Assembly: GCF_042242105.1 (NCBI RefSeq)
Contig: NC_092029.1
Coordinates: forward strand, 3,131,885 to 3,195,884
Source: Pempheris klunzingeri
Taxonomy: Eukaryota > Chordata > Actinopteri > Acropomatiformes > Pempheridae
Length of the DNA: 64,000 nt
Reading direction: 5' to 3'
Shown: positions 1,533 to 57,000 of the stretch, piece by piece
How positions within the stretch are numbered: the stretch's first letter is position 1
How the letters are laid out: every line of letters begins with the position of its first letter
Translations under genes and position numbers: made by a program
Notes under the pieces: generated by a model
Told to the model about the DNA's origin: nothing
The model's database searches: none
What the model saw: only the letters and a program-made list of their open reading frames with translations

Positions 1533-4500
1533 ATGATGCTTCAATTCAGATGGATTAAAATGTCTTTACTCCTGATGCTGCTGGCTCAGTTTTCTGGTAA
1601 GGAAACATACAGAAACACCTTTCAGACATTTCAGAACAAACTTCTGTTGGATCTGGAACAGCCACACTGATATTTCATCTTGTTTTCCAGCTGTGACCAG
1701 ACAAAAGCCCTTCCGCTTTATCGTCAGAAATGGAGGTGAAGTGGCTTTGCCTTGTGGAAATGTGATAAATGGTCAAGACAGGTGTGACAAGGCCAGCTGG
1801 ACCTTTGCTGGTTCAGGAAACAGAGCCTCAATATGGCTCTTTACATCTGGGAAGATTGGTGAACACGTCAAAGCTAAAGACAGACTGAGCGTTGCAAAGA
1901 ACTGTTCTTTGGTTATAAGAGAGGTCACAGTTGAGGATTCTGGTTACTACTGCTGCACACAAGAGGGGCATCCTTGTATTGAGGTTTATCTGTATATCAT
2001 CACCAGTGAGTATTTACATCTTAATATTTTTTTTTCAGCTCAAACAATTTACTCAAACTAAGATAATTTACTTTTTCTCATCTTATTCTCACAATATCTC
2101 ATCTTCAACAGTGACTGAACATAAGCACAATGATGATGTGATGCTAAAATGCATCGTGTCAACATATGGAGGGTGTAGATACACCGCGAAGTGGCTGTTT
2201 GAGGGGGGTAAAAATGTTGAAGGAGATGACACACACATGGAGACGTCACAGTATGGCTGTTCAGTTACTCTGACATTTCCTGCTGCTCGGCTCAGCCGGA
2301 GGTATCGTGAGTTGTTGCAGTGTGAAGTGACTGACAGTTACAGTAGAGAAGTGTTTCCCTTCAGCCCTCAGTCCTCAGGTGAGAAACCAGGTAAGTAATC
2401 CCGTTAAATCACACATTATGTGTTTCTCTCCATTTCGTTTACTGCAGACGGTGAATCATCATCGTCATTCCATTCCTGTCTAAAGTGTAAATATCCTATG
2501 GTGTAAATATTTATTTCATTTCATCACAATCCATATATTTATATTTATATTTATATTTATATTTATATTTATATTTATATTTGCTATTTTTTGTCTTTTC
2601 TATTGTTTTGTTTCTTTCACTGTCCCTGTTTATATTGTTGCTGCTGTAACAAGAAAATTTCCCCCTATGGGGGATAAAATAAAGAAGTCTAAGTCTATGA
2701 TGTTTTTTCTCACCACACAGTTTGTCTGATTTTGGTATTTCATTCTGTAGGTGTGACGACGATGACAACAGCAGCAGCGACGACTACAACAACTAAAAAA
2801 CGCAAAAAAACGAGGACCAACTCAACAGGAACTGCAATCAATGACACTCCAACAACACCAGGAAGTGGTGACCCACAGCTTTGTGTATTTCTTTCAAGAA
2901 TCTCTTTGTCTGTCAGTCGTGAGCAGAGCGGAAAGCAGCAGCTGAAGTGTTTTTTAATGTTTTCATTTGCTTCCCAGTTTGGTGGCTGTACGTCATTGCT
3001 TCTGTAGGTTTCGTGGCACTTGTAATAATCATTGTGGTGATCATCAGATGGAAGAGAAGTAAAGGTGAGCACGTTCACACACACACAACTTTCACCTAAA
3101 AAGAAGTTTAGAAGAAGATGGATTTTTGCCGTGGAAGATAAACATGACTCTACTTTCTCCTTTTTTTTTTTAGGCAACAAAGCACAGATGGACGACAAAA
3201 CTGTGAGTTTGAAACTGAATAATTTAACTTTAAAGAGCAAACAAGGCAGCTGTTCTTAGTGTGTTTGTGTGGCTGAGAGAGTGAGAGAGAACAGTCTGTC
3301 CTGTCTGTGATGCTCTGAAGGTCAACAAAGTTTTTTTTTTTTTTTGTGTGGAGATGGAAGAATATTTGTTAAAGGAACGGAGCATCTTGGTTCATTTTCT
3401 TTCTATGTTTAAAAATAACAAATAGCAAAAGAAATACTGCTGCAAACATGTAACTGTGACACATCTGTGCACTATGCAAGGAGCCGGTTATGGGTATCTT
3501 AGCTTAGCTTAGCTTAGCTTAGCAGACACAAGAAGCTCAGCTCAGTCTCAAGTTCAATAACACACCTGTCAGCACCTCTAAAGCTCAGCCACTAACGTGT
3601 GGCATCGTTATTTCTTGATGAACAGCACATGACACAGGAGGGTGCAGTGATGGCTCCAGGGGGTTACTGCATCCAGCTGGTGGTCACCAAGAAATAGTTA
3701 AAACGTACAGTTCCAGCCCGTCCTCATGCAGACAACGACAACAGTGATCCTTTTATCGACAGGGTTAAAATGACCAATGTTCAGGATGGATGGATGAGTG
3801 GATCAAGCACTTTGAAGGACTTCCACCCAGCCTGTTTGTGTCCCATGTGAAATCAAAAGTGAACGTTGAGTTATTATTATGTGTGTGACTTAACTTGTGA
3901 CTTAAATCCACCACTTCCGGCTGTTCTTTGTCTAAGATACTTATCATAAAGGTCCCATATTATGCAAAATGCACTTTTTAATCACTTTTTAACTTTTTTG
4001 AATATAAAATTTGTTCGTACGTTTAGATTTTGCTACCTTTATGATGTCATAAGGACATCTGTTGATCGGGTGACCTCCTCTAGTCCTTCAGCAGGCCGCC
4101 ATTGTTTTTTTTGTTTTCTCACTAACGCCAGCTCCAGGTAACACAAAGATGATTTCGATGGCGAGAGAGAAGCAGCAGATTGTTTCTTTTCTTCTAAAAC
4201 GGAGCGTTCAGACGAAGGCTGAAAACAGCTGCAGCAGCCACATCTGGAGGACAAAAAAAATGCTTTTTTTGAACATTAAACATGTAAACCTGCTCTTGTA
4301 GGACCTCCAAACACAAGTATGAGCTAAATATGCAAATATGGGACCTTTTAGAGTAGTTTTTGTTGCCTAAATCTAACCAAACTGCAACTCTTTAACATTA
4401 AATTGCATACATTATTACTTGGGATCCTATTCTGTCATTTCATAATTTCAGCGTGCGGATTTGTTGCTTAATGTTCTCTCTTTATTTATGGGCGTTTGTG

Positions 4501-5787
4501 AACTGTGTGTCCAGGGATACAGCTTAAACCCTGCAGTGACTGAGTGTGGTCCAGAAACCAGTCAGGACGCGGTGAGATCACACAGCACACCTTGTACACA
4601 GTCACACTCACTGTTACTGTATGTTTGTTCACTGGAATGTAGTTTGTTCTGCAAGACGGAGAAAAGGGAAGGAAGAGAATAGCCCAAATAACAGTCAAAT
4701 TAGTAGCGTAGAAAACATGAAGCAGAACGTCTTGTGTGAGTGTGAAGTGACGAGTGCATCAGTGTGCCATGTCCACAATAATGACTAAGCTGCCATGATT
4801 TTGTCTTCTTTGTGTAGGCTGATCCAGAAGATGGCGTCTCCTACGCCTCCATCAGCTACACCAAGCAAAGCACCAAAAAAGCCTGGGTAAGCTGTCTGAT
4901 TGGTCCCACATGTGATGCTAGTGAACACAGATAAGTTAAATAAAGAGTAGAAATATAATTCTTCAGTGAAAGCAAAAGCAGCTATAATTGATATTTTCAT
5001 AATAACATCAAATGGTGATTAATCTTTATCTGTCCAGCCCATAATTTGACTGTTTTGGTTCACTGGTGGCAGCAGCAGGGAGCTGTTTTCAGGGAGGAAG
5101 CTCCAAAAAAGCCCCTGCACACGACCGGCTCATCACCACACAGCAGGCAGACTCAGTTAGAGAGTAGCTGGAGAGCCAGGTGTTTCAATCAGGAGCATAG
5201 ACTGTACACAAAGATGGACGACACGTCTCCGCTTATTCCCACTGCAGGCAAATGAAGCCAAAACATCCTGGACACGACCTCTTTCATCTTGGGCTGGTGG
5301 GGCACACTTGACCTTGCAGCAGCATGATAAGAAGTAGCAAAAATGCTGGAAAACCATCTTTAGGAAAAGTTTATTTGTGTATTTAGGTTTCATCAAAAGG
5401 ATTTCATGACCTGTGCTGCAGCCAGCCATCAGGGGACGATCCAGAGGTTTTAGGCTTCACTTTTGGGGGCCTGTCATGTCGTCCATCTTTATATAAGAGT
5501 TCATTTATGTATAGTCTACGATCAGGAGCTAAGAAGAGAGTGTACACCACCGGACCAAAACATCAACTCCATCTGTCTCTGTAAGTGTGTAGTTTACTGT
5601 ATATGTGAGGGCGTTTTCCCCCTTTGCTTCTCAGGTGCAGGTTGCAAATGATGATGATGATGAAGGTGATGCAGTGACCTACAGCTCTGTGAAAGCTTCC
5701 TCTTCTTCTGCTGGAGCCTCTGATGATCCCGACAGCGTCTACGCCGTCGTCAGCAAACCAAACAAAATAAGAGATGACAACACCTGA
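1533..5787 (+). CDS. Ig receptor gene 1: two-Ig-domain, single-pass, ITIM-bearing membrane receptor (9 exons, 385 aa)
   Basis: Putative inhibitory immune receptor at the cell surface. Exons: 1533-1596, 1691-2005, 2112-2378, 2751-2867, 2978-3064, 3174-3202, 4515-4571, 4818-4886, 5635-5787. The first five introns are phase 1 and the last three phase 0. Residues 1-22 are a signal peptide. D1 (about 23-126) has Cys43, Cys53, Trp58, Cys93 and a D-S-G-Y-Y-C ending at Cys109. D2 (127-215) has the same four-Cys plan and a K-W-L-F core. The stalk (216-255) is Thr-rich with a K-K-R-K-K run. A membrane helix lies at about 258-281, followed by basic residues. The tail carries VSYASI (Tyr321), VTYSSV (Tyr351) and SVYAVV (Tyr371), all fitting the ITIM pattern, which recruits SH2 phosphatases in known receptors. 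A two-Met start (1533, 1536) makes the exact start uncertain. The stalk-exon donor (GTGACC) is weak. A second in-frame donor for exon 3 lies at 2391. The ligand and orthology are unknown; DICP- or CD300-like teleost families are alternatives. Confidence 0.8.
2532..2700. repeat. (ATATTT)n tract and retroposon-like tail in intron 3 of Ig gene 1
   Basis: About eight copies of a TATATT hexamer run from 2532 to 2581. They are followed by T-rich sequence ending in AATTTCCCCCTATGGGG-GATAAAATAAAG (about 2656-2690), resembling the 3' tail common on fish retroposons. A related tail is at about 61375-61410. The family name is not determinable by eye. Confidence 0.55.
3420..3625. repeat. degenerate teleost interspersed repeat with TTAGC tandem
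   Basis: The stretch contains five to six tandem copies of CTTAG (3498-3523), then sequence including CACCTCTAAAGCTCA. I recognise this combination from widely dispersed percomorph repeats. It lies in intron 6 of Ig gene 1. Boundaries are approximate. Confidence 0.5.
3948..4350. mobile_element. MITE-like element with GGTCCCATATT terminal inverted repeats
   Basis: The left end reads AAAGGTCCCATATTATGCA (from 3948). The right end reads TGCAAATATGGGACCTTTT (4331-4349), its near-perfect inverse. The element is about 400 bp with no transposase frame, so it is a non-autonomous DNA transposon. I could not define a target-site duplication. It lies in intron 6 of Ig gene 1. Confidence 0.65.
5040..5270. 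repeat. interspersed repeat remnants in the last intron of Ig gene 1
   Basis: The sequence GACTGTACACAAAGATGGAC at 5199-5218 and nearby GC-richer sequence resemble a dispersed fish repeat that often begins ATAGACTGTATATAAAGATGG. A block at 55860-56000 looks like another part of the same family. Recognition is from memory, so confidence is moderate. Confidence 0.4.
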
Positions 5788-6805
5788 GAACCATTTTTAC
5801 CAGCTTTGGCATTTTGGATTGAATAATGAAATATTCTCCTGACAGACCAACCAGGAAAATCCTCAAAGATGAGCAATCTAAAAGCCAGTAAAAGTATTTA
5901 TTACTCTTGATATCGTCCATGACTGAGCACCCAAAGATGACCTGGTTAGTTTTTATTTATCACATTTTCCTCAAGAATGTAAAACAACATCCAAAGACTG
6001 AAATCGTTGGGCACCTTAGAAGAAAACTAGGATGTTATTTCCAGGACGTACTGTTGTAAAAAGCTTTTTGTCCAGAAGGTGGGGTAGTGGCTTAACTAGT
6101 ATGTAGACAGTAAAAGTTATAACCAAACCCTTGTACGTCTGGTTGCTGTGCTTAACTAAAACACAAATAAGAATAATACATGACATGTGCTGCTTGCTGT
6201 CACTACGCTGTGCTCGGGGATGAATGTACTACTGTTGGGATTTGTTTTTAATGCTTTTGTATTTGAATTAGTTTTCTGTGTTAAACACTGGAAACACTAT
6301 TAGAAACGCTCACCAACAACAACAACAACATCAGTTCATACAAACAGCATTCGTGCTGTATTTGCTGTATTTGAGACATTCTTTATTTTAGTTATATTTT
6401 AAGGCTCCCAAAGCTTCCTCGTCACATGTGGTTTCCCCTCTGTGTCACCATGTTACACACCGTGGGTATCGGACATCAAACTCTGGGGTCTGACTCACTT
6501 TGTGTGTTGTCAAACATCACCAAGGCTTTTTAAAGTTTATTTAGCTGTATTTTAAGGCTATAGTTGCACAATTACTTCTCAATTCAGCCTCCTCAGTATT
6601 CCTCATCACCTTTTCAGGACGCCGTAAAACATCCACAGCCACAAATTTAAGTACTGAATGACTGAAAACTGTTAAATCTATTCTTCTTTGTCTGTTGTCT
6701 TTACTGCTAAAAGATTGTATCAGCTCATAGCGTACAGTTTGTCTCATGTTTCACACAGTAAGTCAGATAGCCTGTTTATTGAAATGTGAAAAAAATAAAA
6801 TAAAT
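5788..6805 (+). other. 3' UTR/flank of Ig gene 1
   Basis: No coding exon was seen. An AATAAA cluster lies at 6794-6805, about 1 kb past the stop, and is the best polyadenylation candidate. A block at 6059-6083 (AAGCTTTTTGTCCAGAAGG) recurs 3' of Ig gene 4 at 18497-18513. Confidence 0.5.
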
Positions 6806-6946
6806 AAGAGTTTGTTACTCAGCTCAACCTGGTGTCCTGAAATTTCTGTTGTAGCTTATTGAGAAATAGTTCTTAAAAAGCAAATATTGTCTCCAATAGG
6901 AACCCATTTCAAAAGGATTACATGAATAGAAGTTATGATTATAGAC

Positions 6947-6966
6947 AGGAAGTGTGTTGTGGTTTT
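6947..6966 (+). promoter_or_regulatory. ETS-RUNX-like composite upstream of Ig gene 2
   Basis: AGGAAG (6947) is followed after a few bases by TGTGGT (6958), which are the core motifs for ETS and RUNX factors. The block resembles 921-940 upstream of gene 1, where the ETS core is mutated to GGAT. Function is inferred from motif match only. Confidence 0.35.
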
Positions 6967-7114
6967 TTGGTTGGTGAAAAATGTTCAACAACCTGTGATT
7001 CTGATTCTGTGAAGACTTCTTCTCTTCATCTAAACACCTAAAGTTTCTCCTCCGTCCCCCGAGAGAGAGAGAGATTCAACATGTGAAAGAAAGAAGGGCG
7101 AACAAAGATTCAAG

Positions 7115-7228
7115 TCACTATAAGGAAGTGACACTTTACTGATAACAGGAAGTAATCCTGCGTCTCTCTTAAAGAAGGCGAGTTCAGAAAATTTGACAGT
7201 TTAGGGAAGAGAGAGAGAGAGAAGCAAG
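7115..7228 (+). promoter_or_regulatory. proximal promoter/5' leader of Ig gene 2 with paired GGAAG sites
   Basis: AGGAAG motifs start at 7123 and 7147, again exactly 24 bp apart, with the second 82 bp before the ATG at 7229. No TATA box is seen. Confidence 0.5.
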
Positions 7229-10200
7229 ATGGTTCAGTTCGGTTGGATTCACACGTCTCTTCTGGCGATCGTGGTGCTTCTGTTTACAGGTAAGGATACA
7301 CAGAATCAATACATGAATGAAATAAACATTAAAGATGTTATAGTATTTAAGAGACATTCATTAAAGTAAGTCAGCCAGGTTTGCCGTTTGGTTTGTGCTG
7401 AGTAGTTTCCCCTGTTTAAAACCATCCTGACATAACTCTGAACATAAAACTCATGTTCTGATCACAGTGCATTTGTTTACTTCTCTCTTCAACAGCTGTA
7501 ACTGGACAATCCAAACCCTCCCACACCGCCGGAGTTGGAGATAACATCACTTTGCCTTGTGGAAATGTGCTAAAGAATCAGCCCAAATGTGACGGCACTT
7601 CTTGGCTTGTCACTCGTTATAGCGGGAAAGCAGCAGAAGAGCTGGTCACACATGGGAACATTTCAAAAAATGGGATTTCCAGAGCTAAATCCGACAGACT
7701 GAGTATCACGGAAAACTGTGATCTGGTCATAAAAAACATCACCACTGAGGATTACGGTCGATACTCCTGCAGACAGTTCACAACAGGAACACCAGACTCT
7801 CAGGTTCACCTGTCTGTTATTAACAGTGAGTATTTACATCATCAGCTCCCTCTGAAACATACTGGAACATGAACTGATTGTGCTCTTTTTGCCTTTCTCT
7901 CACAACATCTGCATCTTCTCCAGCAGTTGAAGAGCAGCTCAGTGATGGGGCCGTATTGACCTGCTCCGTGCTGGCATATGAAGGCTGTGGGCACACGGTG
8001 AGGTGGCTGTATGAGGGTGATGTGAGCAATGCACGGATAGAAGAGCACTCCTGTTCAGCCACTGTGTTTCTGACTCCTCCCTGTAATCAGAAGTCAAACC
8101 ATTGTGGGCTACTGAGGTGTCGTGTGACAGATACTAAGAGTGGAGAGGAAAAGCTGGTCAGCCCTCAGTCAGGTACATTTGGCTTTGTTTGATGGATTTT
8201 AAGATTCATTCTTTCTCATCCAGTCTCCTCCGATGTTCAGCTGTTGTGTTTTCTTGTTTCATATCGTATTCGACAAAATCAAAGGGAGCACATCGGATGG
8301 GAAAAACCAGGAATCGTCTAAAGGTCAAAGTAGTTAACTTCCATCTTCCATCTCTGTCTCTCTTTCTTTATAAAGTCTGAATGTCAGCAGACACTCAGAA
8401 GTCTCGAGCCTTGCTGTTGCTCACCAGTGTATCCATAAAAAAATCCCATAAAATTGTTAGACAAGGTGGAAATTCTCTTCATGGTGGCTGCTTCACGCCT
8501 CTCTCATGTTGGCATTGTGTTGACTTTGGTGTGGAAAGAGTTTATATTTAAGTTTTTCACTTCCAGGTTGGTGGTTCATCACTGGGACTTTGGGTTCATC
8601 AGCACTTTTAATAATCGTTGTGGCTCTCGTCTTGTGGAAGATAACTAAACGTGAGAGCGTTCACATTCACGGATGAAACCTTTATAAGCTGTTTTGATTT
8701 TCACTGATGTGAAATGTGAAAACCATCTCTCTCTTTTTATCTTTTCAGGGAGCAAAACACAGACGGATGAAAACATTGTGAGTTTCAAACCTTAATTAAT
8801 AATCAAATCTTCATACAGTTGAATCTTAAAAAGAACAGTTTGTGGTAGTTCAATTACGAAAGTGACTCTGGTCATAGAATAAACAGTGTGTACTGTATTG
8901 TATTGACACTACTGTGTTGCAGCTGCAAAGGTGCAAAGGCCGAAAGAATGACTGATATAGAATTTATTTTAGGAGTGATTAGATATGATTAGTGATTACA
9001 TATGCAAATTTACAGCACAGCTCGCATATTTTCTGGAAAACTGTACTCTGATGGTGTTTTTCCAGGGGCAGAGGTTAAACTCAGCAGTGACTCAGCCTGG
9101 CTCAGGGCCCAGTGAGGACATGGTGAGGTCACACACGGCAACCAGTTCAAAGTGACGCTCGCTGTTATCTATATTTGGTCTCCATAACACAGCAGCGTGA
9201 GACAAGAAGAGTCCGACTTCCCTCTGCAAAAAGAGGAAAAAAGAAGTCAAATCATGCTAGTAATCCAGAACGCCCACATGCTACTGAGCAACGGTTATGT
9301 TGTCTTCTCCGTGTAGGTGGATCTTGAAGATGGTTTGTCCTACGCCTCCATCAGCTACACCAAGAAGGCCGACAGTGCAGCCCAGGTAAGCTGTCTGCTT
9401 GGTGATGCCGGTGTTGGTAGTGAATGAGGAAGCAGGACAGTCATGTTAGAGCCTCTGTTTGGCTGCACAGTGGTGTTTTAAACTGTTACCACAGACTGTT
9501 ACCACAGACTTCCCCAGATTTCTAACATGCTGATGCTAAGCAGGTGATGTCAGTAGTAGTTGGGCATCTTACCATGCTAACATTTGTACAGCTGAGGCTG
9601 ATGGGAACAATATTTCCCAAGTATTGGCTCAAACGTATTGTTGAAATTGAACTTTTGACTAAAAGGCGGCACCAGGTGAAGTTAAAGAACAATTGTCATC
9701 ATCTAGAGTGGAACGTGAATTTAAAGGCAATCCATTCATTCATTGTTGTGATGTTTCATTTAAAAGTCGACCCCACGGTGGCCCTACAGAAAAATAAGTC
9801 AGGGGATCACCAAAGTCCTAAAGATTCATCCTCTGGGAGCCATGAACGTCTTTACCAGATTTGTGGCAAGTTTAGCCATAATTTACTAAATGAACATCCT
9901 GCTGTGGTGAAGAAGAGTGTAAACTAGCAACTGAGAACATAAACTGAAATGTTTATGAGCTGATATAGAGAGAAAAGAGAGAAGTAGCGTCATTTTCTCA
10001 TTCACTCAGAATTCTTTTTGCAGGATTAAAGGTGATAACGCACCATTTTTCAGACCCAGAAGCTACATCCACTTCTTTTACACAGTCTGTGATCTGATCA
10101 TCTACATGTAATTAAAGTAGCTGTAGATATTTATGGACAATGAATCTCAAAATACTTTTTCAGACCAGAGTTTCAGTGCCTCCAAGAAGTGGGGAATTCT

Positions 10201-11172
10201 TGCAGCATTTCCACAGCATCCTCTATATATCATAAACATAAGCAAATGAAAAATGGTACATTTTTAGCGCAACTCAGCCGACTCAGACAACTTCAGCGTG
10301 TGTCATATAGTGATTCACCAGGGTCCCTGCCTGATGCTGAAGCCATATGGACATTACTTCATTAACCCTTTCATGCATGAATTATGATCCTTACCTCAGT
10401 CAGGATTTTTTTTACTAAGTGTTTTTATTCATCTTTCTTCTTTTTTTTTTTTCAACCCAAATTTTCTAAAGATATTTTTACATGTCCAGTAGTTGAAATA
10501 TAGCTACTGATGCATGATGTACAATTCAGTGGGCATGTGATCAATCATAATTTCCTCCCAATATAAAATCAATACTTGGAAAATTTAGCAATTGCATGAC
10601 TCCTTAGATGTTACCTGATGTCCCCATATTTTTCTTACCTGCAACAGTCTCTTTTTATAGAAGGTTTGAACAGAAAAAAATGAGTAACTTGGTGTTTCTG
10701 GCTGTCTGTCGGCCATCTTGGCTTCCCACTGGGCAGTGGGCAGTGTATGAGATGATGTAGCAGCTTCACTGTAGCGGCTGATGTGCAACTACGCCATCAA
10801 AACTCATGCATATACAAGAAAACAGCTTTTGAATAGCTGCACACTGCAGTGACCTCTATGCATGAGAGGGTTAAGATGAGACTGCTGGGCTGCATGTGCT
10901 GCTTTGCTCGGTGCAGGATTCTTGTGGCGGAGCACTAACACTGTGTCCTGTATTAATGTATATTTTATTGTGGTTTGTAGTGCTTACGTTGTGTTTATGT
11001 GTTGCTCAGTGAGAGGATGTAACTCATGTGCCACACTGCTTCTCTTTTTTTCTCAAAGGTTGTGGATAAAGAAGACGCTGCTGAAGGTGACGCAGTGACC
11101 TACAGCACTGTGAAAGCCCCCGCCGATGATCCCAGCAGCCTCTACGCTACCGTCAGCAAAGCAAGCAAATAA
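7229..11172 (+). CDS. Ig receptor gene 2: two-Ig-domain ITIM receptor lacking the stalk exon (8 exons, 330 aa)
   Basis: Paralogue of gene 1. Exons: 7229-7289, 7496-7825, 7924-8172, 8567-8650, 8749-8777, 9066-9122, 9317-9385, 11059-11172. Residues 1-21 form a signal peptide. D1 (22-130) carries the four-Cys plan (L-P-C-G-N, K-C-D, N-C-D-L, Y-S-C) and an E-D-Y-G-R-Y turn. D2 (131-213) has V-R-W-L-Y and a short C'-D region. D2 joins the membrane exon (215-241, starting W-W-F) directly because no stalk exon could be found in the 8173-8566 intron. The tail has LSYASI (Tyr279), VTYSTV (Tyr308) and SLYATV (Tyr322), all ITIM-type. The last tail segment is shorter than in genes 1, 3 and 4 because the Ser-rich linker is missing. 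Exon 3 may instead start at 7927, since two AGs lie 3 bp apart. The final intron holds two interspersed repeats. Confidence 0.8.
9530..9900. repeat. teleost interspersed repeat in the last intron of Ig gene 2
   Basis: The stretch includes ACCATGCTAACATTTG and, at about 9798-9850, GGGGATCACCAAAGTC followed by CATCCTCTGGGAGCCATGAA. I recognise this order from a repeat spread through percomorph genomes. The 127-codon open frame across it has no domain features and is treated as chance. Confidence 0.5.
10366..10870. mobile_element. piggyBac-type MITE flanked by TTAA
   Basis: The element begins CCCTTTCATGCAT at 10366 and ends ATGCATGAGAGGG at 10870, an imperfect inverted repeat. TTAA lies on both sides (10362-10365 and 10871-10874). 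TTAA target duplication with CCC/GGG ends is the hallmark of piggyBac transposons. At 505 bp with no transposase frame it is non-autonomous. It sits in the last intron of Ig gene 2. Confidence 0.8.
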
Positions 11173-11776
11173 AAGGTCACAGTGTAGCTACAGCTCATAT
11201 CAGGACATCGATTTTACACCAATAACTGTTCAGGAAACCAAGTGGTTTTTTACATTTTTTTTATCGTGCCTCGTCTTTACTGATGCTGTTGTACTGAGAC
11301 TTTTATGCAGTCAAAATCCTGGATTTGATATTTATTGATGTTTTTATAAATAACCCAAATGCTCTGACCAGATTAAAGCCTGTTGTTATTGATACACAAA
11401 GGAAAAGGTCAGCGCTTAAAGCTCAACTATATCTGTGTATTATTTCCAATATGGCAATGTTTTAATTCTTACATAAACATATGAACATGTTTTCTCTGTT
11501 ACTATTGTTTTTATGATCAATTTCAGGATTTATTGTGGTTAAAAAAACAACAACAACTTCCTGTCCGAAAGAGGTCATGGTGGTTTTACTCGTAGCACAG
11601 TGGAAAATGTAGAATAATGTGTATAATGTATTATACAGGCTGTATATTCCAGATGTTACTGTTATTTAAATGGGGATCAGTCGTTTGTTATCGAGCTTTT
11701 ATTGTGTCATTGTTTGTGTTCTGTGCCGTTTTGTATGTATGTTCTTGTCCCCATAGAAATAAACTTCTAAAATAAA
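11173..11776 (+). other. 3' UTR of Ig gene 2
   Basis: Non-coding. Two AATAAA signals at 11758-11763 and 11771-11776 are plausible polyadenylation signals about 590 bp after the stop. Confidence 0.55.
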
Positions 11777-11934
11777 CTAGACAAAAGATACTGGCCACCC
11801 GTGGGAGTCTTATTAAACAAGTAAATGAGTGGAAAGACCCAAAGGGACATATTCTCATTTTCCCTCTTCTGCTTCAAACTTAATGTCCCCTGCTGCAACA
11901 GATCTTTGATATGCTCTAAAAGGAAAAAGTAAGT

Positions 11935-12066
11935 CAGTACGAGGAAGCAACGCCTGTCTTATCACAGGAAGCACACACCATCTATATCCACTATCGATAT
12001 CTAGATCTGTCTTTATGAAGACTTTGACAGTTGAGAGGGTGAGAGTGACAGAGACAGAGAGTCAGG
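11935..12066 (+). promoter_or_regulatory. proximal promoter/5' leader of Ig gene 3 with paired GGAAG sites
   Basis: AGGAAG motifs start at 11942 (GAGGAAG context) and 11966, 24 bp apart, with the second 101 bp before the ATG at 12067. Confidence 0.5.
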
Positions 12067-14632
12067 ATGGCTGAGTTCAGATGGATGAAAATGTCTTTTT
12101 CACTGATCGCCGTGCTTCAGATTACAGGTATGGACTTTTAAAAGGGACAGAAATGCTCTTATGAGGATGACACACATTTGTTGTATCTAAAAATCATCTT
12201 CAAACTAACTATGAACACTATTTTCTTTTTCGTTTTTTCTCTCTTGTCTCCTCAGCGGCTGGAGCTCGACATCCCCACAACTTCATCGCCAGAGATGGAG
12301 ATGCTGTCACTCTGCCGTGTGGACATGCGAGAAAAAGTGGCTGTGACGGCGCCACCTGGTTCTTCCAGGGCCTGGGAAACGCAGCAAAAGGAGAGCTGAG
12401 TGAATTAAAGACGATTGAACAAAAGTCCAAAGCTGCATCAGACAGACTGAGTGTTACAGCGAACTGTTCTCTGGATATAAAGAAGGTCACAGCCGAGGAT
12501 GTTGGTCTTTACACCTGCAAGAAGCACAAACTGAGCAAACAGCAAGGCCACGGCTCTCAGGTTCATCTGTCTCTTATCAGCAGTGAGTATTTGCATCTTA
12601 ATGTTTTCAGCTCAAACTGGCAGTATACTTTTATATTTTATTTAGTTTGCTCTTATTCTTTTATTCTTTTTATCTCTTCTCCTGCCTTCTCTCTACTGTT
12701 TTTGTCTTTTTCTTCCTGTTTTAAATCTTCATCCTTGCTTCTGTTTGGCCTCACTGTTCGGCTGTTATATTTCTCCCCGAGTATCCTGTTTTTCTTTGTC
12801 TGTCAAAGGTGCATAACACAACAATAATTATACAATTTGACTCCTCTTTCCTCTTTCTCTCGCAACATCTCCCTCTGCACCAGTGACTGAACACAAGGTC
12901 GGTGACAAGGTGACGTTGAACTGCTCTGTGCTGACATGTGGACGGCGCAGACACACAGTGAAGTGGCTGTATGGGGGTGAAGATGTGAGCGAAGAGAACA
13001 AGGAAATCACGATTAGCTGGTCTACCTGCTCAGTCAATGCGACCTTTATGGAGTTAGTGAAGTGTGGCGTGGCAGATACGTACACAGGAAAAGTGCATTC
13101 GTTTCCCTTCAGACCCATTTTGACTGAAAGAGACAGCTTCAGCCAAACTGTGTCATGTTGGTGGGGGTACATCCTTGTGGCTGTGGCTTTAGTAGCACTT
13201 CTGGTGAACGCCGTTGCCGTCCTGAGATGGACGAGAACCACAGGTGAGAATGTACACTGAATTCATCAGCAAGAATTTCCTACTGACGAGGATGCTCACC
13301 GTGGAAGCTGAAGCTGAGTTTCTCTTTTGTCTTTTCAGCAAATGAGGACGCACAGATGGATGACAACACTGTGAGTTTAAAACGTTTAAACAGTTTATAC
13401 AATATCTATGAGATCATTGAGCAAACCAGTGTTTGTGGTGCTTCTTTTTCTCTGAGACTTTAACTGTGATTTCATGCAGTTATTGAAAGAAAATAACTAT
13501 AAACCATGATGCAAAGCCAGCAGCTGGCCCGGGGGAGCAGGGGGTCACTATTAGGATGAGCTGCCCATTAATGAAGATGCATTTCCGCTTCCAAAATGAC
13601 AAGAGAGCAGTGACTTCAGTGCGACAGTATTTATTGTGGTTATTGTGGACTGAATTAGAGCTGGAGATGTTTTCACAGTCACCACCACATGTAGTACCTG
13701 AGACACTGAGACATGCACAGATATGGTATGATGCATACATAGCATTACATTGTGGAGGTGTTGCTCCTCTCTCTAGCAATATCTGCATGAACTGAACTGT
13801 AACCGAGACCAGCGTGTGTTTGTTCTCCAAAATATTACCCTCTTGCAATAGAGAAAAAAAAGGGGAAGGAAAATGGTGCAACTGAACCACACCAGAAACA
13901 AGCCTACGTCATCACTGGGTGCTGTTTACACACACTCGTGTCCTAGTTGTGAAGCAGAACACACATCATGTGCTCAGAAACCTGGAGAAGACCGTACCTG
14001 AGTTGTGAGAAATCTGGATATGTTTTGTATTTGTACTCATGGGTACAAATAATGATAATAAATAAAAGGTTTGACCCATGTAAACATCAGATCCTGAGGG
14101 ACAACATTTCACAGACATAGGATACATATCATGACCTACCTGGCTGAGGTAACAGGAGTTAATTATCTTGACTGTTACAGACTAGAATAAAAACATGAGA
14201 GCGAGTCAGTATAACTCCACAAGTTGCTGAGCAGCCATTCTGCTCTGTTCTCTGTTAGGCTGATCCTGAAGAAGGTGTTTCCTACGCCTCCATCAGCTAC
14301 ACCAAGAAGACCCAGGTAAGCTGTCTGCAATATTATACTGCTGCTGGAGGTGAAGAAAAATGAAAGGAATCAACTATTTCATCGCTGAAAGCTTGTGTAC
14401 TCACTAGGTTAAGGATTTCAGGATGCTCTTTTGCACTGGTGTTATCTTCCATCACGCAGCGTTGCTATGCTACGCTTTATCATATCCTGTTGTGTGACTT
14501 TCGTCATAGGTTCTGGGTAAAGATGATGGTGATGTGGTGACCTACAGCACTGTGAAAGCTTCCTCCTCTTCCGCTGGAGCCTCTGCTGATCCCACCGACC
14601 TCTACGCTACCGTCCGCAAACCAAAGAAATAA
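12067..14632 (+). CDS. Ig receptor gene 3: ITIM receptor with D2 and membrane segment in one exon (6 exons, 319 aa)
   Basis: Paralogue with a reduced gene structure. Exons: 12067-12127, 12256-12582, 12884-13243, 13339-13370, 14259-14315, 14510-14632. Signal peptide 1-21. D1 (22-129) has L-P-C-G-H, S-G-C-D, N-C-S-L and Y-T-C. D2 starts with M-T-E-H at 130 and has V-K-W-L-Y; its second cysteine is shifted toward the first (N-C-S-V-L-T-C). The same exon reads on through a short linker into the membrane helix (W-W-G-Y-I-L-V-A), where the other genes have one or two introns. The 57-bp tail exon found in genes 1, 2 and 4 could not be found between 13371 and 14258, and phase 0 on both sides lets the frame continue without it. 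The tail has VSYASI (Tyr269), VTYSTV (Tyr291) and DLYATV (Tyr311). The last has Asp at the -2 position, so it only loosely fits an ITIM. Confidence 0.78.
13371..14258. other. long intron of Ig gene 3, no retained exon seen
   Basis: This 888-bp intron occupies the place where the paralogues carry a 57-bp tail exon. I see no sequence matching that exon (GGN..CT..A..CC.GCAG..ACT). The GC-rich piece at 13514-13550 and the sequence after it look inserted, but I cannot name the repeat. Confidence 0.45.
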
Positions 14633-15065
14633 GAGACCACAGTGCACATCATTACATAATATATATGTGACATGTTTTACATGATATGTCTGTCTGGTTA
14701 AAGGATCCACCCGTTATGCTGTACTGTGTAAAACATACTGTTCATCTCTGTGGGCAGTTTGTCAATGTAATGCAAATCTTGGTGATGCTTTCATATATTA
14801 TCCTGACAGAGGTGGATGCACATTTGCATCTAGTTATTTACTATGATTTTAACGTGTAACATCTGATTCTTAATGTTTTTTTTCTTGAATTTGATTTCCA
14901 GGATTTATTTCTGTAAACTGCTTTCTCCTCCATCAGCTAACTAACATAATGTAGAAGTTGTGATCAGACATTGCTAAATCTGTTTGCTTAAAACATAAAT
15001 CATCATAATGTGTGAACTTGCTATCAGGCTCTTAATTTTGAGTTTTTCCTGTTTTTTCAAATAAA
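14633..15065 (+). other. 3' UTR of Ig gene 3
   Basis: Non-coding. AATAAA at 15060-15065 is the likely polyadenylation signal. GATTTCCAGGATTTAT near 14891 resembles ATTTCAGGATTTAT near 11521 in the gene 2 3' region, consistent with tandem duplication. Confidence 0.5.
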
Positions 15066-15130
15066 AGCATTCTGTTTTATCTCTTTTGAGCATACATCAC
15101 TTGTAATTGTTTCATAAGCAGTTTGAATAG

Positions 15131-15134
<4 letters not shown>

Positions 15135-15165
<31 letters not shown>

Positions 15166-15166
15166 G

Positions 15167-15200
<34 letters not shown>
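15135..15200. repeat. (TA)n then (CA)n microsatellite between Ig genes 3 and 4
   Basis: About twelve TA repeats are followed by about fourteen CA repeats with short interruptions. Confidence 0.9.
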
Positions 15201-15202
<2 letters not shown>

Positions 15203-15297
15203 TACACCTGCAGCTGCAGCTGTTAACATGTGTGAGTGTTGACTGGCTGACAGGAGGAAAGTCAAAACTATCTCCATCAAGAAAAGAGGGAAGCTGC

Positions 15298-15393
15298 CAC
15301 TTTGAGGAAGTTGTGCACAAGTCTGCTCGCAGGAAGTATGAGCTTTATTGCATGTGCTGTAAGCACAAGTTTCAGCGAAGACAGAGAAGAACG
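15298..15393 (+). promoter_or_regulatory. proximal promoter/5' leader of Ig gene 4 with paired GGAAG sites
   Basis: AGGAAG motifs start at 15305 (GAGGAAG context) and 15331, 26 bp apart, with the second 63 bp before the ATG at 15394. The spacing differs by 2 bp from the other three genes. Confidence 0.5.
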
Positions 15394-18179
15394 ATGGTTC
15401 CATACAGACGGATTAAAATATCTTCATCTCTGATGCTGGTGCTTCAGTTTACAGGTGAGGACACGTACACTTTAAGAAGGTGAACTGTACCAGCGTAGAT
15501 ATTACTGGTACTTGGTAGCTTCGTGTTGTTTGTTTTTAACATGAACGGAACACTTTGAAACGTATGCATCTAAAATGATCGTCACACTAAGTAGGATCAC
15601 ATCATTATGCCTTTATTTTCATCAGATTCTGCTTCTATTTAGCTGCTGTGAATCAGTTTGTGATTGGGTTTTGAAAGGTGCTATGCAAGTTAGATGTATT
15701 TTTATCATTAGCATTACCATTATTATTATTATTAGTAGTAGTAGTAGTAGTAATAGTAGTAGCAGTATATCACACATATTCTGATTTTAGTTTATTTGTG
15801 GCTGTTTCTCTCTCATTTCCTTCACAGCAGCAGCTCTACAACAGACCCCCTCCTTCATTGTCAGAGCTGGAGATGAAGTCACTTTGCTTTGTGAGAATTT
15901 GGTAAATGATCACCACAGATGTAACAGCACCTCCTGGCTTTTCAATCGTTTTGCCTCTTCAGCAGCAGTGGGCCTGTTCGAACATGGACAGTTCAGTAGA
16001 GACGCCAGAGTGAAATCCAACAGACTGAGTGTCACAGAGAACTGTTCTCTGGTTATACAGAAGGTCACAGGTAAAGATGCAGGTCTTTATTTCTGCCAAC
16101 AGTCCAAATCAGGACGAAGACCAGTTGAAGACTATAAGGTTCAGCTGTCTGTTGTTAACAGTGAGTATTTATATTAGAATTTCAGCTCAGACTGAGTTGT
16201 TAGAACATGAACATACTGAAACTCAACAATTATAATTACAGAGATGAAATCAATTTTACTCTTGTGCTCTTTCTCTCAACATCTCCATCTGCACCAGTGA
16301 CTGAACACGAGGGCGCTGATACGGTGACGTTAAAGTGCAACGTGTCGACCCGTGGAAGGTGTATGCACAAAGTGAAGTGGCTCTTTCAGGGTAAAGCCAT
16401 AGATAAAGGCAATGAAGGCTTGAGGACGTCACAGTCGACCTGCTCGGCCACCGTGACCTTTAAGATGTCTCATTTTGTCTACCCATCAAAGAATTACAAG
16501 TTCTTTAAGTGCAACGTGACAGACAGTTACAGTAAAAGAGTGCATCTGTTAACCTTCGGGCCTCAGAACTCAGGTGAGAGAGTGGGTGAGACTATGATGA
16601 GCTGCTCAAAATCACCCCATGATGTGTTCATTTTATGGGTTTTATCTAATGTAGGAGCAACCAAAGCAGCACCTGGAGACGACAACAGTGCAGCAAAGCC
16701 ACACGGTATTTTTCATATCTCACGTTTATGTTTTAAAACATTTGTAAAAGGTGAATTGTCTTTTAGCCGCAGGGTGTCGAACAGAACAGATGGCTGCAAC
16801 TGAACATGCTTTAATTCTGTTTCTAGATCAGTGGTGGCTGTACATCGTCGTGGCTGTGGGTGTAGCAGCGCTCATCATAACTGCTGTGGCGCTCATTAGG
16901 TGGAGGAGAAATAAAGGTGGGAACATTCACAGAGGAAACTTTTACTGACAAAACGTGTTGATACATCTGAATTTCTGCAGTGGAAGCCAAATAAGTCTCT
17001 CTCTTTTTGTCTTTTTAGGGAGCAAAACACAGAGGGGTGAAAGCATGGTGAGTTTTTAAAAAGAATAATCAAATGTTAAAAAACAATTATGACTTTACAG
17101 TGTTTGTGGTAGTTGGTTTTCAGAATTATAACTATGAGACATGAGTAATCAATACTGCCTATATTGTCTTGAAAGAAAGTGGTGGCAGCAGCAAAGGTCA
17201 AATAATTCCTTGTGAAGGAAACTGAGTGAGAATATAAACCAAAACATCAGTTAAATTATTGATACACTTGAGGCCATGTTGTATTCCTACATAGGAATAC
17301 CTGGGTGATCTTTGGATAACTTAAGGCAAGCGAGCCCCTGGACCCCCCCTTGCCTCAAGGCTTCCAGGGTCCACCCACCACAGTCTCAGAAAATCCTGTG
17401 GATGAAGGAAGCCTACACAGTGTTTTATTGCACCACTGTTGCTCATATTGTGTGCTGGAAATATCTGCATTCTTTTCTAACTGGATGCTCGTAAGATGCT
17501 TTGGGGGCAAAATAACTTTAACTAGACCGTGTTTGTTCAGGGACCGAGCTTAAAGCCTGCAGAGACTCAGTGTGGTCCGGAAACCAGTCAGGACTTGGTG
17601 ATATCACACACTCCAAACAGTGCGAACCAGTTACGCCCACTGGTGTTTGTACCCTTTCTTTAATATATAACTGAGCGTGACACACAGTGACTCTTGAGCC
17701 TAGTTTCCGTCTGCAACAAAGAAGAAAGGGGAATAAACAGAGGGTCAAAAATAACAGATGAAAATGCAAAGTCACTCAGCTTATAAAAGCACAGTTTCAC
17801 AACTCTTGAAGTCATCCTATTTACGACATAGAGGCAGAGGAATTAAAAGAAAAAGCAAAGAATAGAACAGAAATCCTTGGTAGTGAGCGGCCATTATGTT
17901 GTCTTCTTTGTGCAGGCTGATCCTGAAGATGGCATTTCCTACGCCTCCATCAGCTACACCCAGAGGACCAACACTGAGGGAAAGGTAGGCTGTCAGTTAA
18001 AATAATGTTGGTAGTGAATATAGAAAATAAACAAATGCTTCATTCCTGAGCTCTGTGCGGTATTTGTCCTGCAGGTTAGGGGTGCTGGTGACGTAGTGAC
18101 CTACAGCGCTGTGAAAGCTCACTCCTCTTCTGCTGGAGCCTCTGCTGATCCAACCAACCTCTACGCCACCGTCAACTAA
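15394..18179 (+). CDS. Ig receptor gene 4: two-Ig-domain ITIM receptor with short stalk (9 exons, 356 aa)
   Basis: Paralogue with the same nine-exon plan as gene 1. Exons: 15394-15454, 15828-16160, 16298-16573, 16655-16705, 16827-16916, 17019-17047, 17541-17597, 17916-17984, 18075-18179. Signal peptide 1-21. D1 (22-131) has L-L-C-E-N, H-R-C-N, N-C-S-L and Y-F-C. D2 (132-223) has V-K-W-L-F and the four-Cys plan, with an N-V-T-D after the last Cys that could be glycosylated. The stalk exon gives 17 residues rich in Ala and Asp, unlike the Thr/Lys-rich stalk of gene 1. Membrane helix about 243-265, starting W-W-L-Y. The tail has ISYASI (Tyr308), VTYSAV (Tyr332) and NLYATV (Tyr352); the last departs from the ITIM -2 rule and the protein ends two residues after it. 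The D1 acceptor is duplicated (CAGCAG, exon start 15828 or 15831). Confidence 0.8.
15640..15775. repeat. retroposon-like tail with ATT/AGT tandem in intron 1 of Ig gene 4
   Basis: TTTTGAAAGGTGCTATGCAA (15671-15690) resembles the GTGCTATATAAATAAA tails of fish SINE/LINE copies. It is followed by an impure (ATT)n then (AGT)n tract at about 15716-15760, as expected for a retroposon tail that seeded a microsatellite. Confidence 0.5.
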
Positions 18180-19030: not shown

Positions 19031-20538
19031 CCAGCGCCGCTTTATCCTCACTGATTCAATCATGTGAGGGATTGAAGACGCCTATTTTTTTTTTTTATCA
19101 ACATGAAGTCGGATTTTCTGGGGAGATTGTTGATAGCGAGGCGCCGTGCAGGCTGCTGACGGGAAGGAATGCTCACAGGAGGTCATTTTCCCGGACTGGG
19201 GTGGTGGGAGGCAACGGCCCCCGCAGTGTTGAGTAGCGTCAGCTAGCTAGCAAAATAGAAGGGCTTCCGGATGATATTTTCAAAATAAGGAGACTCGTGA
19301 GAGAACGATTGGTTTGGTCGACGTTTTTTAAAGATAATTCTGCAACCGACACACTCACCACGCTTACACGCGAAGAAGTAGTGGCTTTATGAGTGTGCTG
19401 TAACGATTATTAGGATGTATTCTTGATATCCGCAATATCAACAAACGTGCAGCTTTTATTTTGGTGGAATCTAACGTTAGTGTGTTCCGGTTTAACGGTT
19501 GTTAGCTCCTGCTAGCTTGACGCGCACAAGAAGGGGTGAAGTTACAAAGCCTCGAACCAAAACAAGACTTCACAGCCTGTGGTGGACAACGGCGGCTTGT
19601 TATGAATGGGACCTACCTCTTCTCGCCGTGTGTCTGTCGAGTCAAATGCCTTTTAAACGGCAGGATCCGACGGTTGTGTGAAGCCGGAGCCCCGGTGGAG
19701 AGCACGGCACTGTTGGATTAATAACGGTTGGGTTTTTTTTTTTCGGCGGATGGACTCAAACGACAAAATCCCTGATGTCGAAATGAACTTGTGCCTGTGG
19801 TGAGTTTGGAAAGAGGATTCCTCTCCGTAACAAGACATGTCTTTAATTTTGTGCATGCAATGTAGTATTGTATGATTTAAAAAAAGAAACTAGCATGTGT
19901 TTTTGTGCTCATGGAGGAGTTTATAGAGAGCCTGTCGATCTGCAGGGTCACTGAGGACTAAAACCACCTTGTCATTTGTTGATTTTTATTCTAATATCCT
20001 TAAACTTCATAGTGCATTTAACACCTTTTGCACCCTGCTGATTTTAACAAGCATAATCGGATTTTTTCTATCACCCAGTGAGCAACTTTAGGATGGTATG
20101 TGCGTCATTTTGGACCCATGATTTCTCTGCACATTTATGCTTTTTACAGTAATTGCAGGATTTCTATGAAAGAAATCAGTCTTGGTCGACTGTTGTCACA
20201 CTTGGGAAGATTCTAGCCATGCTGTTTAAGCTTCGCTCCTCTTCCAAAATAGGAAATGCTCAGATCAACCTACCTTATTAAAGCACTACTGGGCCATTTA
20301 TGGAAACATTTCCTCCAGCTGATCCTCGCAGTGCAGAAATTCAGCTGTATTTCAAAAAGCATGTGACATTTCTACCACATTTGAGGAAGTGAAATGTGTT
20401 CTGGTTTGTTTTATCCTGCCAGGTTTGTCCTTTAAGATCAACATGTACCGTCCAACTCTGACAAACAAGAAGAAGCTCTTGTAGCTGGAGGAGGATTTCC
20501 TGCCCCAACTTTTCCTCCTCCTGGCCCTCTTGGGAGCA
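19030..20538 (+). other. vash2: 5' untranslated exon(s) and first intron of vash2
   Basis: CpG-rich sequence continues to about 19730 and contains several out-of-frame ATGs but no long frame. A donor-like CTGTG-GTGAGT at 19799 and an acceptor-like TTTTATCCTGCCAG ending at 20422 suggest a non-coding first exon spliced to a leader about 115 bp long before the ATG. These splice sites are inferred. Confidence 0.4.
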
Positions 20539-42821
<22,283 letters not shown>

Positions 42822-54063: not shown

Positions 54064-57000
54064 GGTTATAGAGCGTGAAGACTCTGCTTTACACTTGGAC
54101 TTTGGAGAGAAATGAAAGAAGACAGACAGAGTAAATCTTACCTCTTAGCAGCAGCAGCTTTGTTGGCAACATCTTCTACAGTCAGATTAGAGATGGCTCC
54201 TTCTACGGCTGAGAGAGAAAACAGTGTCAGCGATGAGGCTCCACGTCCAGCTGACAGACCCAGCAATAAAACAAACTTAATCTAAGGACTAAACTAAAAA
54301 GGTTGATTTTTGTGCCAAGACATCCAAACTTAAGTGTTTGCATGAATTAAACTGAGCAGATTTAGCAACTTCAAATATCTTCAGATTGAACATAGTTTAA
54401 CTCAAATAATAACAGTAAAAAGTGTGCAGTAAGGTAAGTTTAGATGAGCTCAGTAGATGATGGATGTACCTGTCGGGCTGCTGGAGGACGACTCAGCAGT
54501 GGGTTTGTATTCACACCGAGAGTTGATTCCCAAACCGTGAGACCAGATTGGAGACGTGAGGAGACGCTGACCTCTGGGACTGTTTTCCTGACCAGACACC
54601 TGCATACAAACACACAGTCACATACTGAAAGTCATCTTTTTACAATTAAACTGGTATTTTTAAATCCAGGCCCCCGTTTTTATGTATTTTGGGTTTGAAT
54701 TTTGGGATTTTTATACATTAGTTTGGATCCAAGCTAACACCAACAGGCAGCAGTAGAAGAGCAACTCCTGTGATCTGCAGGGTAAAATTCCTGTTTTTGT
54801 AAATGGAGTCTGGTGGCTTTGAGGAGAACAATGAAACAGGAGGTTTGTGGTTCATCAAAAAGGATCTAAGCAAACTCAGAGTAACAATCGAAGCGCCTGT
54901 TAGTGGCAGAAAGAAGCACTTCAGTGGACGCACCCCCCCACCGGACCAATTCCAACACATTTTGTTTGTAGCAGTTGTTTTAAAACCTACATTTATATAA
55001 AATAGGGTGTGTGTGTCTCACCATGCCAATCTGTAGTCCCTGGTACTCCAGGCAGCCTGTGGTCAGAAAGCTGTACAGTGGACTCCAGGGGGTGGAGTTA
55101 AAATCCCCACACAGCAAAACCGGACAGGTGGAGCCGTCCGGGAGGCGGGACAGTCTCTTTATCTCGGCCAATAGGATCGCCAGCTGAGCCAGTTTGACGT
55201 CGCCGCGGCGAGGGTTGTAGAGGAGGTGAGTGTTGGCGACGCAGATGAAGGCGGATGGATCTGACGGAGCCGCGGTGTCGTTTGGCTGCAGCAGCACGAC
55301 CAGTCCCACGTTGTCCCGGTCCAGGAGGGCGTCGCCGGGGCGGAAAAACTCAATGGGATTGGAGGAAAGGAGTGACAGGCGGGAGGCTTTAAAGATGACA
55401 GCACAGCCGTCTGGTTTCCTTCCTGTTCGCCTCTTGTACTCACACTGGTAACCTGACACACACACACACACACACACACACCAATATGAACATAAACACA
55501 TGCATAAGGTTTAACATTTCACAATAAAAGCACAAGAAATGTGAAAATACATTGATGGATTTTAAATATTTTCCATCATACGGTCTTCAATTGCAAAGAG
55601 GACACACACACACACACACACACACACATACCTAGTGCCTGTAGAGCAGGTTTAATCTGGTTTTCGTAGTGGTCCTCTTGGACTTCTTGCAGACATACGA
55701 TCTAGAAAAAGAGATTTTCCGTCACATGTTATGTCTCCATCACTAATGCTGTAATTGAGATGTCACGGCAGGATGTTCATTTAGTAAATTATGGTCCCAT
55801 TCAGAGGAAAATAGACCAGGAAGAGCGTTAAGACGGGGCTACCCTGTGATAAACCTAACCAATCAGATACAAATGTCACTTCTGGTTGTGAAACCAAGAT
55901 GGTGACGGCCAAAACTCCAAACTTGAAGCTTCAAAAATGGCCGTCCACAACCAACGGGTGACGTCACGGTCGCTATTGAGATTTTCACGGCAACATATTA
56001 ATGCTTCTGGTTTTTAGAAGGAGGCAGCAGTCATATTTTCAAGTGTCCTCATACTTCTGGCCATATAATGTACATCCCTTTGAATCAACCTAACCCACTC
56101 ACATCAGCGTTGTACTGCTGGATCTCCGCCAGCAGGTTGGGCAGCCGGTACTCCCAGGGCAGGACGCTGGGGTTACAGTGGCGGTACAGGTAGGCGTTGT
56201 CCTGCAGCAGCTCCTGCGACAGGATGTTGTAGGTCATCACCGAGAAGTCGAACGCTGCGCTGTCCTGGCAGGCAGGAAGAGCCTCCCAGCGTCTCTGAAG
56301 AGCTGAGGAGGGACAGACAGATGCATCAGCAGCTTCACAGCCATCCAACAATAACAGATACATTAATTACACGTGTCCTGAACTGAGACATGAGATTGTA
56401 AATTGCTCCTTTACTCATCAAACAAAAGCAACAAGACATTACAGGTTTACTTCACAGAAGAAAATAAGCAAATGCTGACATGTGGAATAGAATAATGTGA
56501 ATTTGGTCATTTATTTTTGGTGAGCGACTCAGAAAGCAACTCAAGTCTTGGATGTCAGAGCATCTTTAACACGCGGAGCTCTGAAAATAAAGTTCTTGAT
56601 GATTAAAGCAGCTACATGGAGCATTAAGTTTGTGCTGATGTTGGCGCCCCCTGTGGACACAAGCGGTACCGTTTCCCAGAATAAAGAATGTATCCGAGTA
56701 CAAAATGCATTTTCTAAAATTAAGCGTGGCCCTGAGATGATCACTGGTCACGCCAAGCGCTGTGACGGCCCCCAGGGCGAGAGAGGAGAGCCAGGCTAAG
56801 AGATAAGATGACCCAGATTGGAGGAGAGCCGTGGTAAATCATTTAGTTGGAAGCAGGCATTTAGGAGAACAAAACAGAAAGCCAATAACAGCCAATAACA
56901 GCCAATAACAGCCAATAACAGCCGATCTTCTGCTGGTCTGTAGCTTCTGTAGGTCACATACATTCCACTGTGACTGTTTCACAACCAGAACCTGTCCTTT

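Follow-up and report, generated by a model that had tools for sequence, protein, structure and literature searches.

A germline cluster of two-domain immunoglobulin-type receptor genes with putative inhibitory tails between flvcr1 and vash2 in Pempheris klunzingeri

The DNA analysed here, hereafter the window, is a stretch of 64,000 nucleotides (nt) of the fish Pempheris klunzingeri (NC_092029.1, positions 3,131,885 to 3,195,884; C18:3131885-3195884 in our labelling), taken from an assembly of 646 Mb in 439 contigs; the 180 kb to its left were also read. Between window positions 1533 and 18179 it holds four complete plus-strand genes (Table 1) with open frames of 385, 330, 319 and 356 amino acids (aa), which encode receptors with two immunoglobulin (Ig) domains, D1 and D2. 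With the exon ends set by hand at conserved sites, the models have GT-AG introns throughout, agreeing phases and no internal stops, which bears out, limits included, the four paralogues within 17 kb proposed by the initial annotation of this DNA. Each protein consists of a signal peptide, a V-set D1 (above the Pfam cut-off in all four), a C-type D2, a hydrophobic membrane helix C-terminal to D2 and a tail encoded by small exons, with an overall pairwise identity of 42-49%. The tail exons of 57 nt and 69 nt are constant in size across genes 1, 2 and 4. The plan predicted for all four genes thus stands in its domain order; in its exons gene 3 departs from it: its stalk exon and its tail exon of 57 nt are lost, the 69-nt exon has a counterpart of 57 nt, and a single exon encodes both D2 and the membrane helix. 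A comparison of the four proteins with the whole window revealed no further copies at E < 0.1 in positions 1-1532 or to the right of 18179.

Every tail contains three tyrosine motifs. With the consensus [SIVL]xYxx[ILV] of the immunoreceptor tyrosine-based inhibitory motif (ITIM), as given in the accessible sections of PMC2442602, the cytoplasmic tails of all four predicted type I membrane proteins are matched, and genes 1-4 carry 3, 3, 2 and 2 canonical ITIMs, respectively. The initial annotation, which saw three tyrosine motifs per gene, needs a correction for genes 3 and 4, whose third motif (DLYATV and NLYATV) is ITIM-like only. Shuffled tails contain on average 0.16-0.21 ITIMs (P = 0.00035, 0.0006, 0.010 and 0.0075 for genes 1-4), with a pattern that also accepted T at the first place, where no observed motif has it. 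The exons bearing the tyrosine motifs begin in phase 0, as described for the ITIM exons of salmon NILTs in the accessible part of PMC3022915. Divergence at synonymous sites (dS) between the window genes is 0.29-0.44 in the tails, 0.39-0.83 in D1 and 0.66-1.32 in D2; since the tails are closer to each other at these sites than D1 or D2, a partial exchange of tail cassettes among the window genes would fit.

As to the Ig domains, the four cysteine columns of D1 are present in all 11 D1s aligned, and the extra pair is spaced by 40-43 residues in each of the four window genes. The AlphaFold2 models of gene 4 have a mean pLDDT (predicted local distance difference test) of 78.7 for D1 and of 79.7 for D2, the latter with seven strands. 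Together with the gene models and the motifs, these folds support the two-Ig ITIM receptor family that had been proposed. D2 contains four cysteines in genes 1, 3 and 4 and six in gene 2. The four-cysteine likeness of the two domains gave rise to the idea that D2 was derived by copying D1; comparing their profiles gave little support (probability 20.5 over 28 columns), and for this reason such an origin is not claimed.

The four genes belong to a larger complex. Comparison of the gene 4 D1 with its own genome (41 candidates scored) gave 20 D1-like exons at E <=0.001, 19 of them on C18 at 3.10-3.44 Mb: four in the window, three in a relative named L1 and 12 in a cluster to the right. These counts are lower bounds, a second relative, L2, having fallen below the threshold and been recovered by tblastn. 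The sole D1-like exon off C18 is at C4:2548366-2548611 (E 1.2e-7). L1 and L2 lie 15-27 kb left of window position 1, where further copies had been suspected. L1, with its six Ig domains, has an arginine in the membrane helix and one ITIM, with VTYENI in its tail; it has a candidate signal exon, of which there are two upstream copies (C18:3102490 and 3103645). L2 follows the plan of the window genes, with one D1-D2 pair and the tail motifs MTYVSV, VTYSTV and NLYSNV. The right-hand cluster has its 12 D1 exons, six per strand, at C18:3368541-3439861, 218-290 kb right of gene 4.

The genes modelled in this cluster share the ectodomain plan of the window genes and differ in their signalling ends. 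In R1 (L030), which follows that plan, the helix (LDYMMLVIRVAEILL / LDYMMLVIRVAEILLITVITVLLF) contains D, R and E, and the tail has VNYENM but lacks an ITIM; R2 (L030:5746-7375) has a helix as in R1 and an early stop in the tail. The minus strand of C18:3368000-3377999 (L029) holds three tandem near-identical copies, in which D1 has diverged far beyond the remaining unit (measured for copies A and B); copy A combines a neutral helix with VNYENI. Tails with YENM, YENI and YENV all occur among the sister genes. Both a charged helix and a YxxM tail are features known from activating receptors. Alike ectodomains hence carry different signalling ends in this family, and the "array of four" of the initial annotation, correct for the window, is a part of a complex some members of which have no ITIM. 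Trees built from D1 and D2 intermix the window genes with R1, R2 and A at modest support (0.14-0.88) and set the L genes apart as a clade with support 1.0. Elsewhere in the genome there are two other dense groups of Ig_3 matches (C3:2826565-3404925 and C10:27073612-27511060), and three Ig_3 matches recur with equal scores on C2:4899842-4903592 and C290:23144-26918, perhaps an unmerged haplotype copy.

The right-hand genes also bear traces of how such a complex changes. R1 and R2 are identical by 71.6% in D1 and 74.4% in D2; their stalk, helix and tail exons, together with the introns between them, are 98.8-100% identical, and this signalling cassette is, judging by its sequence, recently exchanged or duplicated. 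Copies A and B, with a likeness of 98.1% across 3 kb, differ at 27 of 333 positions in D1, 12 of 285 in D2 and 13 of 2389 outside both domains (P = 2e-16 for D1 versus outside), so that D1 diverges 15 times as much as the rest of the unit; of the 26 changes to their D1 coding sequence, 23 are nonsynonymous. Over three pairs, chosen after the counts were seen, without copy A and without a model of transition bias, the nonsynonymous excess in D1 is 34 of 35 (P 0.00095). Such an excess of change in D1 would arise under diversifying selection as well as by conversion with other D1s as donors. As to the front face of D1, the BC-C-C' and FG regions hold 17 of 25 variable sites in copies A-C (P 0.0025) and, for the L genes, 16 of 29 (P 0.08), a weak indication in both cases, as the region was picked after the sites had been seen.

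On C18 the order of genes is flvcr1 (E 1.3e-70 to FLVCR1), an assembly gap, L1 and L2 on the plus strand, P450 exons, the window genes and vash2. The gap, of exactly 5000 N (C18:3090885-3095884), separates flvcr1 from L1, and receptor copies may therefore be missing between them. Between L2 and gene 1, the minus strand carries the P450-like exons (C18:3121997-3130512; L011, L012), at least two of which are supported by Pfam. The gene right of the array, named vash2 from the outset, is confirmed as such by its Vasohibin match and by VASH2 chains, which outscore VASH1. In human, FLVCR1 and VASH2 are neighbours, with no Ig genes known in between, and this makes the order flvcr1 - receptors - vash2 notable. 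Further right in the window, the long open frames at 36353-37639 coincide with a CA-rich array of repeats (translation of the THTYRL type) and are probably not a gene. Minus-strand open frames with Exo_endo_phos support at about 55000-58100 are, judging by their position, probably angel2.

Table 1. Receptor genes and associated features (window positions unless C18 is given)
Feature	Position	Strand	Exons	Description
gene 1	1533..5787	+	1533-1596, 1691-2005, 2112-2378, 2751-2867, 2978-3064, 3174-3202, 4515-4571, 4818-4886, 5635-5787	9 exons, 385 aa; VSYASI, VTYSSV, SVYAVV; Thr-rich stalk exon
gene 2	7229..11172	+	7229-7289, 7496-7825, 7924-8172, 8567-8650, 8749-8777, 9066-9122, 9317-9385, 11059-11172	8 exons, 330 aa; LSYASI, VTYSTV, SLYATV; without stalk exon
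gene 3	12067..14632	+	12067-12127, 12256-12582, 12884-13243, 13339-13370, 14259-14315, 14510-14632	6 exons, 319 aa; VSYASI, VTYSTV, DLYATV
gene 4	15394..18179	+	15394-15454, 15828-16160, 16298-16573, 16655-16705, 16827-16916, 17019-17047, 17541-17597, 17916-17984, 18075-18179	9 exons, 356 aa; ISYASI, VTYSAV, NLYATV
gene 4, D1 exon	15828..16160	+		V-set; canonical Cys pair and second Cys pair (BC loop, strand E)
gene 4, D2 exon	16298..16573	+		C-type Ig domain; four-Cys layout similar to D1
gene 4, last two tail exons	17916-17984, 18075-18179	+		phase 0 entry; tyrosine motifs
L1	C18:3105027-3109729 (L010:3028-7730)	+		three D1-D2 pairs = six Ig domains
vash2, first conserved part	20485..20874	+		open frame; Pfam Vasohibin 60.7 bits

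The window genes probably form the inhibitory branch of a teleost paired-receptor complex encoded in the germline, a complex that lies between flvcr1 and vash2 and continues 218-290 kb to the right. In this case the V-set D1 would probably bind a cell-surface or microbial ligand via its front face, upon which Src-family kinases would phosphorylate the tail tyrosines; the phosphorylated tail would recruit SHP-1 or SHP-2 through their tandem SH2 domains, and the signals of neighbouring activating receptors would be damped. Sister genes of like ectodomain plan, with charged helices and other tails, would provide the activating side, and the partner may be a gene of the R1 kind acting with an adaptor. 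Recombination would keep the stalk-to-tail cassettes alike, with D1 free to diversify. The data themselves show the structures and motifs of the genes, how far the cluster extends, the identity of the cassettes and the excess rate in D1; expression in leukocytes, binding of a ligand, phosphorylation, recruitment of SHP and pairing with an adaptor are steps that we infer, those of signalling by analogy with established ITIM biology. Several points weigh against this interpretation. The direct sign of an activating type is limited to the YENM motif and charged helix of R1, which is fully intact, R2 being partly so; 20 kb of the right-hand cluster were read, and three of its 12 D1 exons were built into genes. 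Gene conversion could replace selection as the cause of the D1 excess. Finally, the overall ratio of nonsynonymous to synonymous divergence (dN/dS) among the older window genes is below 1 (0.67-0.89), and rapid change of D1 is therefore shown solely for the recent copies outside the window.

Searches in Pfam, NCBIfam and PDB sequences found no named family beyond generic Ig domains; the initial annotation, too, had tied the genes to no named mammalian receptor. The matches of D1 included pIgR among many other Ig proteins; CD300 and pIgR have an extra disulphide in the C-C' region, and none of the four window D1s has a cysteine between the strand C tryptophan and the strand E cysteine. The likeness to Siglecs and CD22 consists in a V-set D1 with a cysteine in the "CSL" of strand E, and L1 reaches 33.4 bits with the Pfam model Ig_CD22 (cut-off 27) over a partial stretch; the window genes stay below the cut-off (gene 2 only, 15 bits), and all 11 D1s have the strand F cysteine, which differs from the disulphide layout of Siglecs. 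The mammalian paired receptors KIR, LILR, SIRP and CD300 share the general plan of one cluster in which alike ectodomains are joined to inhibitory and to activating tails, but no sequence-level tie to them was found beyond generic Ig domains. As to viral capture, 57 pattern matches among viral contigs included no relative, and the idea was rejected.

Among the fish families, NITRs resemble the window genes in being clustered germline type I receptors with a V-type D1, a second Ig domain, mostly ITIM tails and few charged helices (PMC2442602, accessible sections). However, according to the same sections, the V and/or I domain of nearly all medaka NITRs ends in a J or J-like motif FGXGTXLX(V/L), and the I domain has six highly conserved cysteines. 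No FGXG occurs at the D1 ends (SVVN/SLIS/SVIN/YIIT) or the D2 ends of the four window genes, these have more tail exons, and the six D2 cysteines are found in gene 2 by count only, without evidence of their matching the NITR six. NILTs, in the accessible part of PMC3022915, are likewise clustered and have V-type domains and several phase-0 ITIM exons, the phase being a general rule and not diagnostic; their additional Ig cysteines form CX3C, CX6C or CX7C, which none of the four window D1s has, the extra cysteines being about 40 residues apart instead of 3-7. In the open-licence literature no paper on this array was found, and the papers matching a search with the motif strings show no link to fish receptors. 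With these NITR and NILT hallmarks absent, the window genes below the CD22 cut-off and DICP a candidate name, we place the genes among the teleost multigene Ig receptors.

DICPs combine D1 and D2, vary in domain number and have inhibitory and activating forms. Their linkage to MHC class I is named in the title of a paper; the window genes sit between flvcr1 and vash2. It is quite possible, if at rather less than an even chance, that the window genes are DICPs: their plan (V-type D1 with D2, variable domain number, both functional forms) resembles the window genes, L1 and R1, and DICP is the likeliest name for them. As described in the accessible sections of PMC5340972 and PMC10961373, DICPs are a teleost multigene family with natural killer-like expression in zebrafish. 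More tentatively, the locus between flvcr1 and vash2, with its continuation on this contig, may represent a distinct, unnamed paired-receptor complex of ray-finned fishes, with four-cysteine D1 and D2, with ITIM, YENM and charged-helix cassettes exchanged between fast-diversifying ectodomains and with a six-Ig form; it would then be a separately evolved counterpart in fishes of the KIR and LILR complexes.

Two other explanations concern the function of the tails and the state of the genes. The tails could act mainly as phosphotyrosine scaffolds of adhesion-type receptors, docking Grb2, SAP-like proteins or PI3K and not recruiting SHP, as the YENM, YENI and YENV tails of the sister genes fit YxN and YxxM docking and the D1 fold resembles, among many others, the V domains of the SLAM family; we regard this as unlikely, because the first two motifs of the window genes have the canonical ITIM form in 8 of 8 cases ([VLI]xYxxI and VTYxxV) and show no YxN or YxxM at these tyrosines. 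That the array consists of decaying or unexpressed duplicates, as the early tail stop of R2 and the exons lost in gene 3 might suggest, is highly improbable, given that at 42-49% identity all four genes have intact frames and splice sites and retain both the Ig cysteines and the tyrosine motifs, with an overall dN/dS below 1.

In general, immune receptor complexes of fishes bear on the number of times that inhibitory and activating receptors have evolved as pairs. The inhibitory branch proposed here would be part of a full set gathered in little space, where the exchange of cassettes and the fast change of D1 have left direct traces, so that the drivers of such receptors become testable in one species. 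If the genes constitute a separate family, it would be added to NITR, NILT and DICP; if they are DICPs, that family would be extended, and its place in the genome, beside flvcr1 and vash2, revealed.

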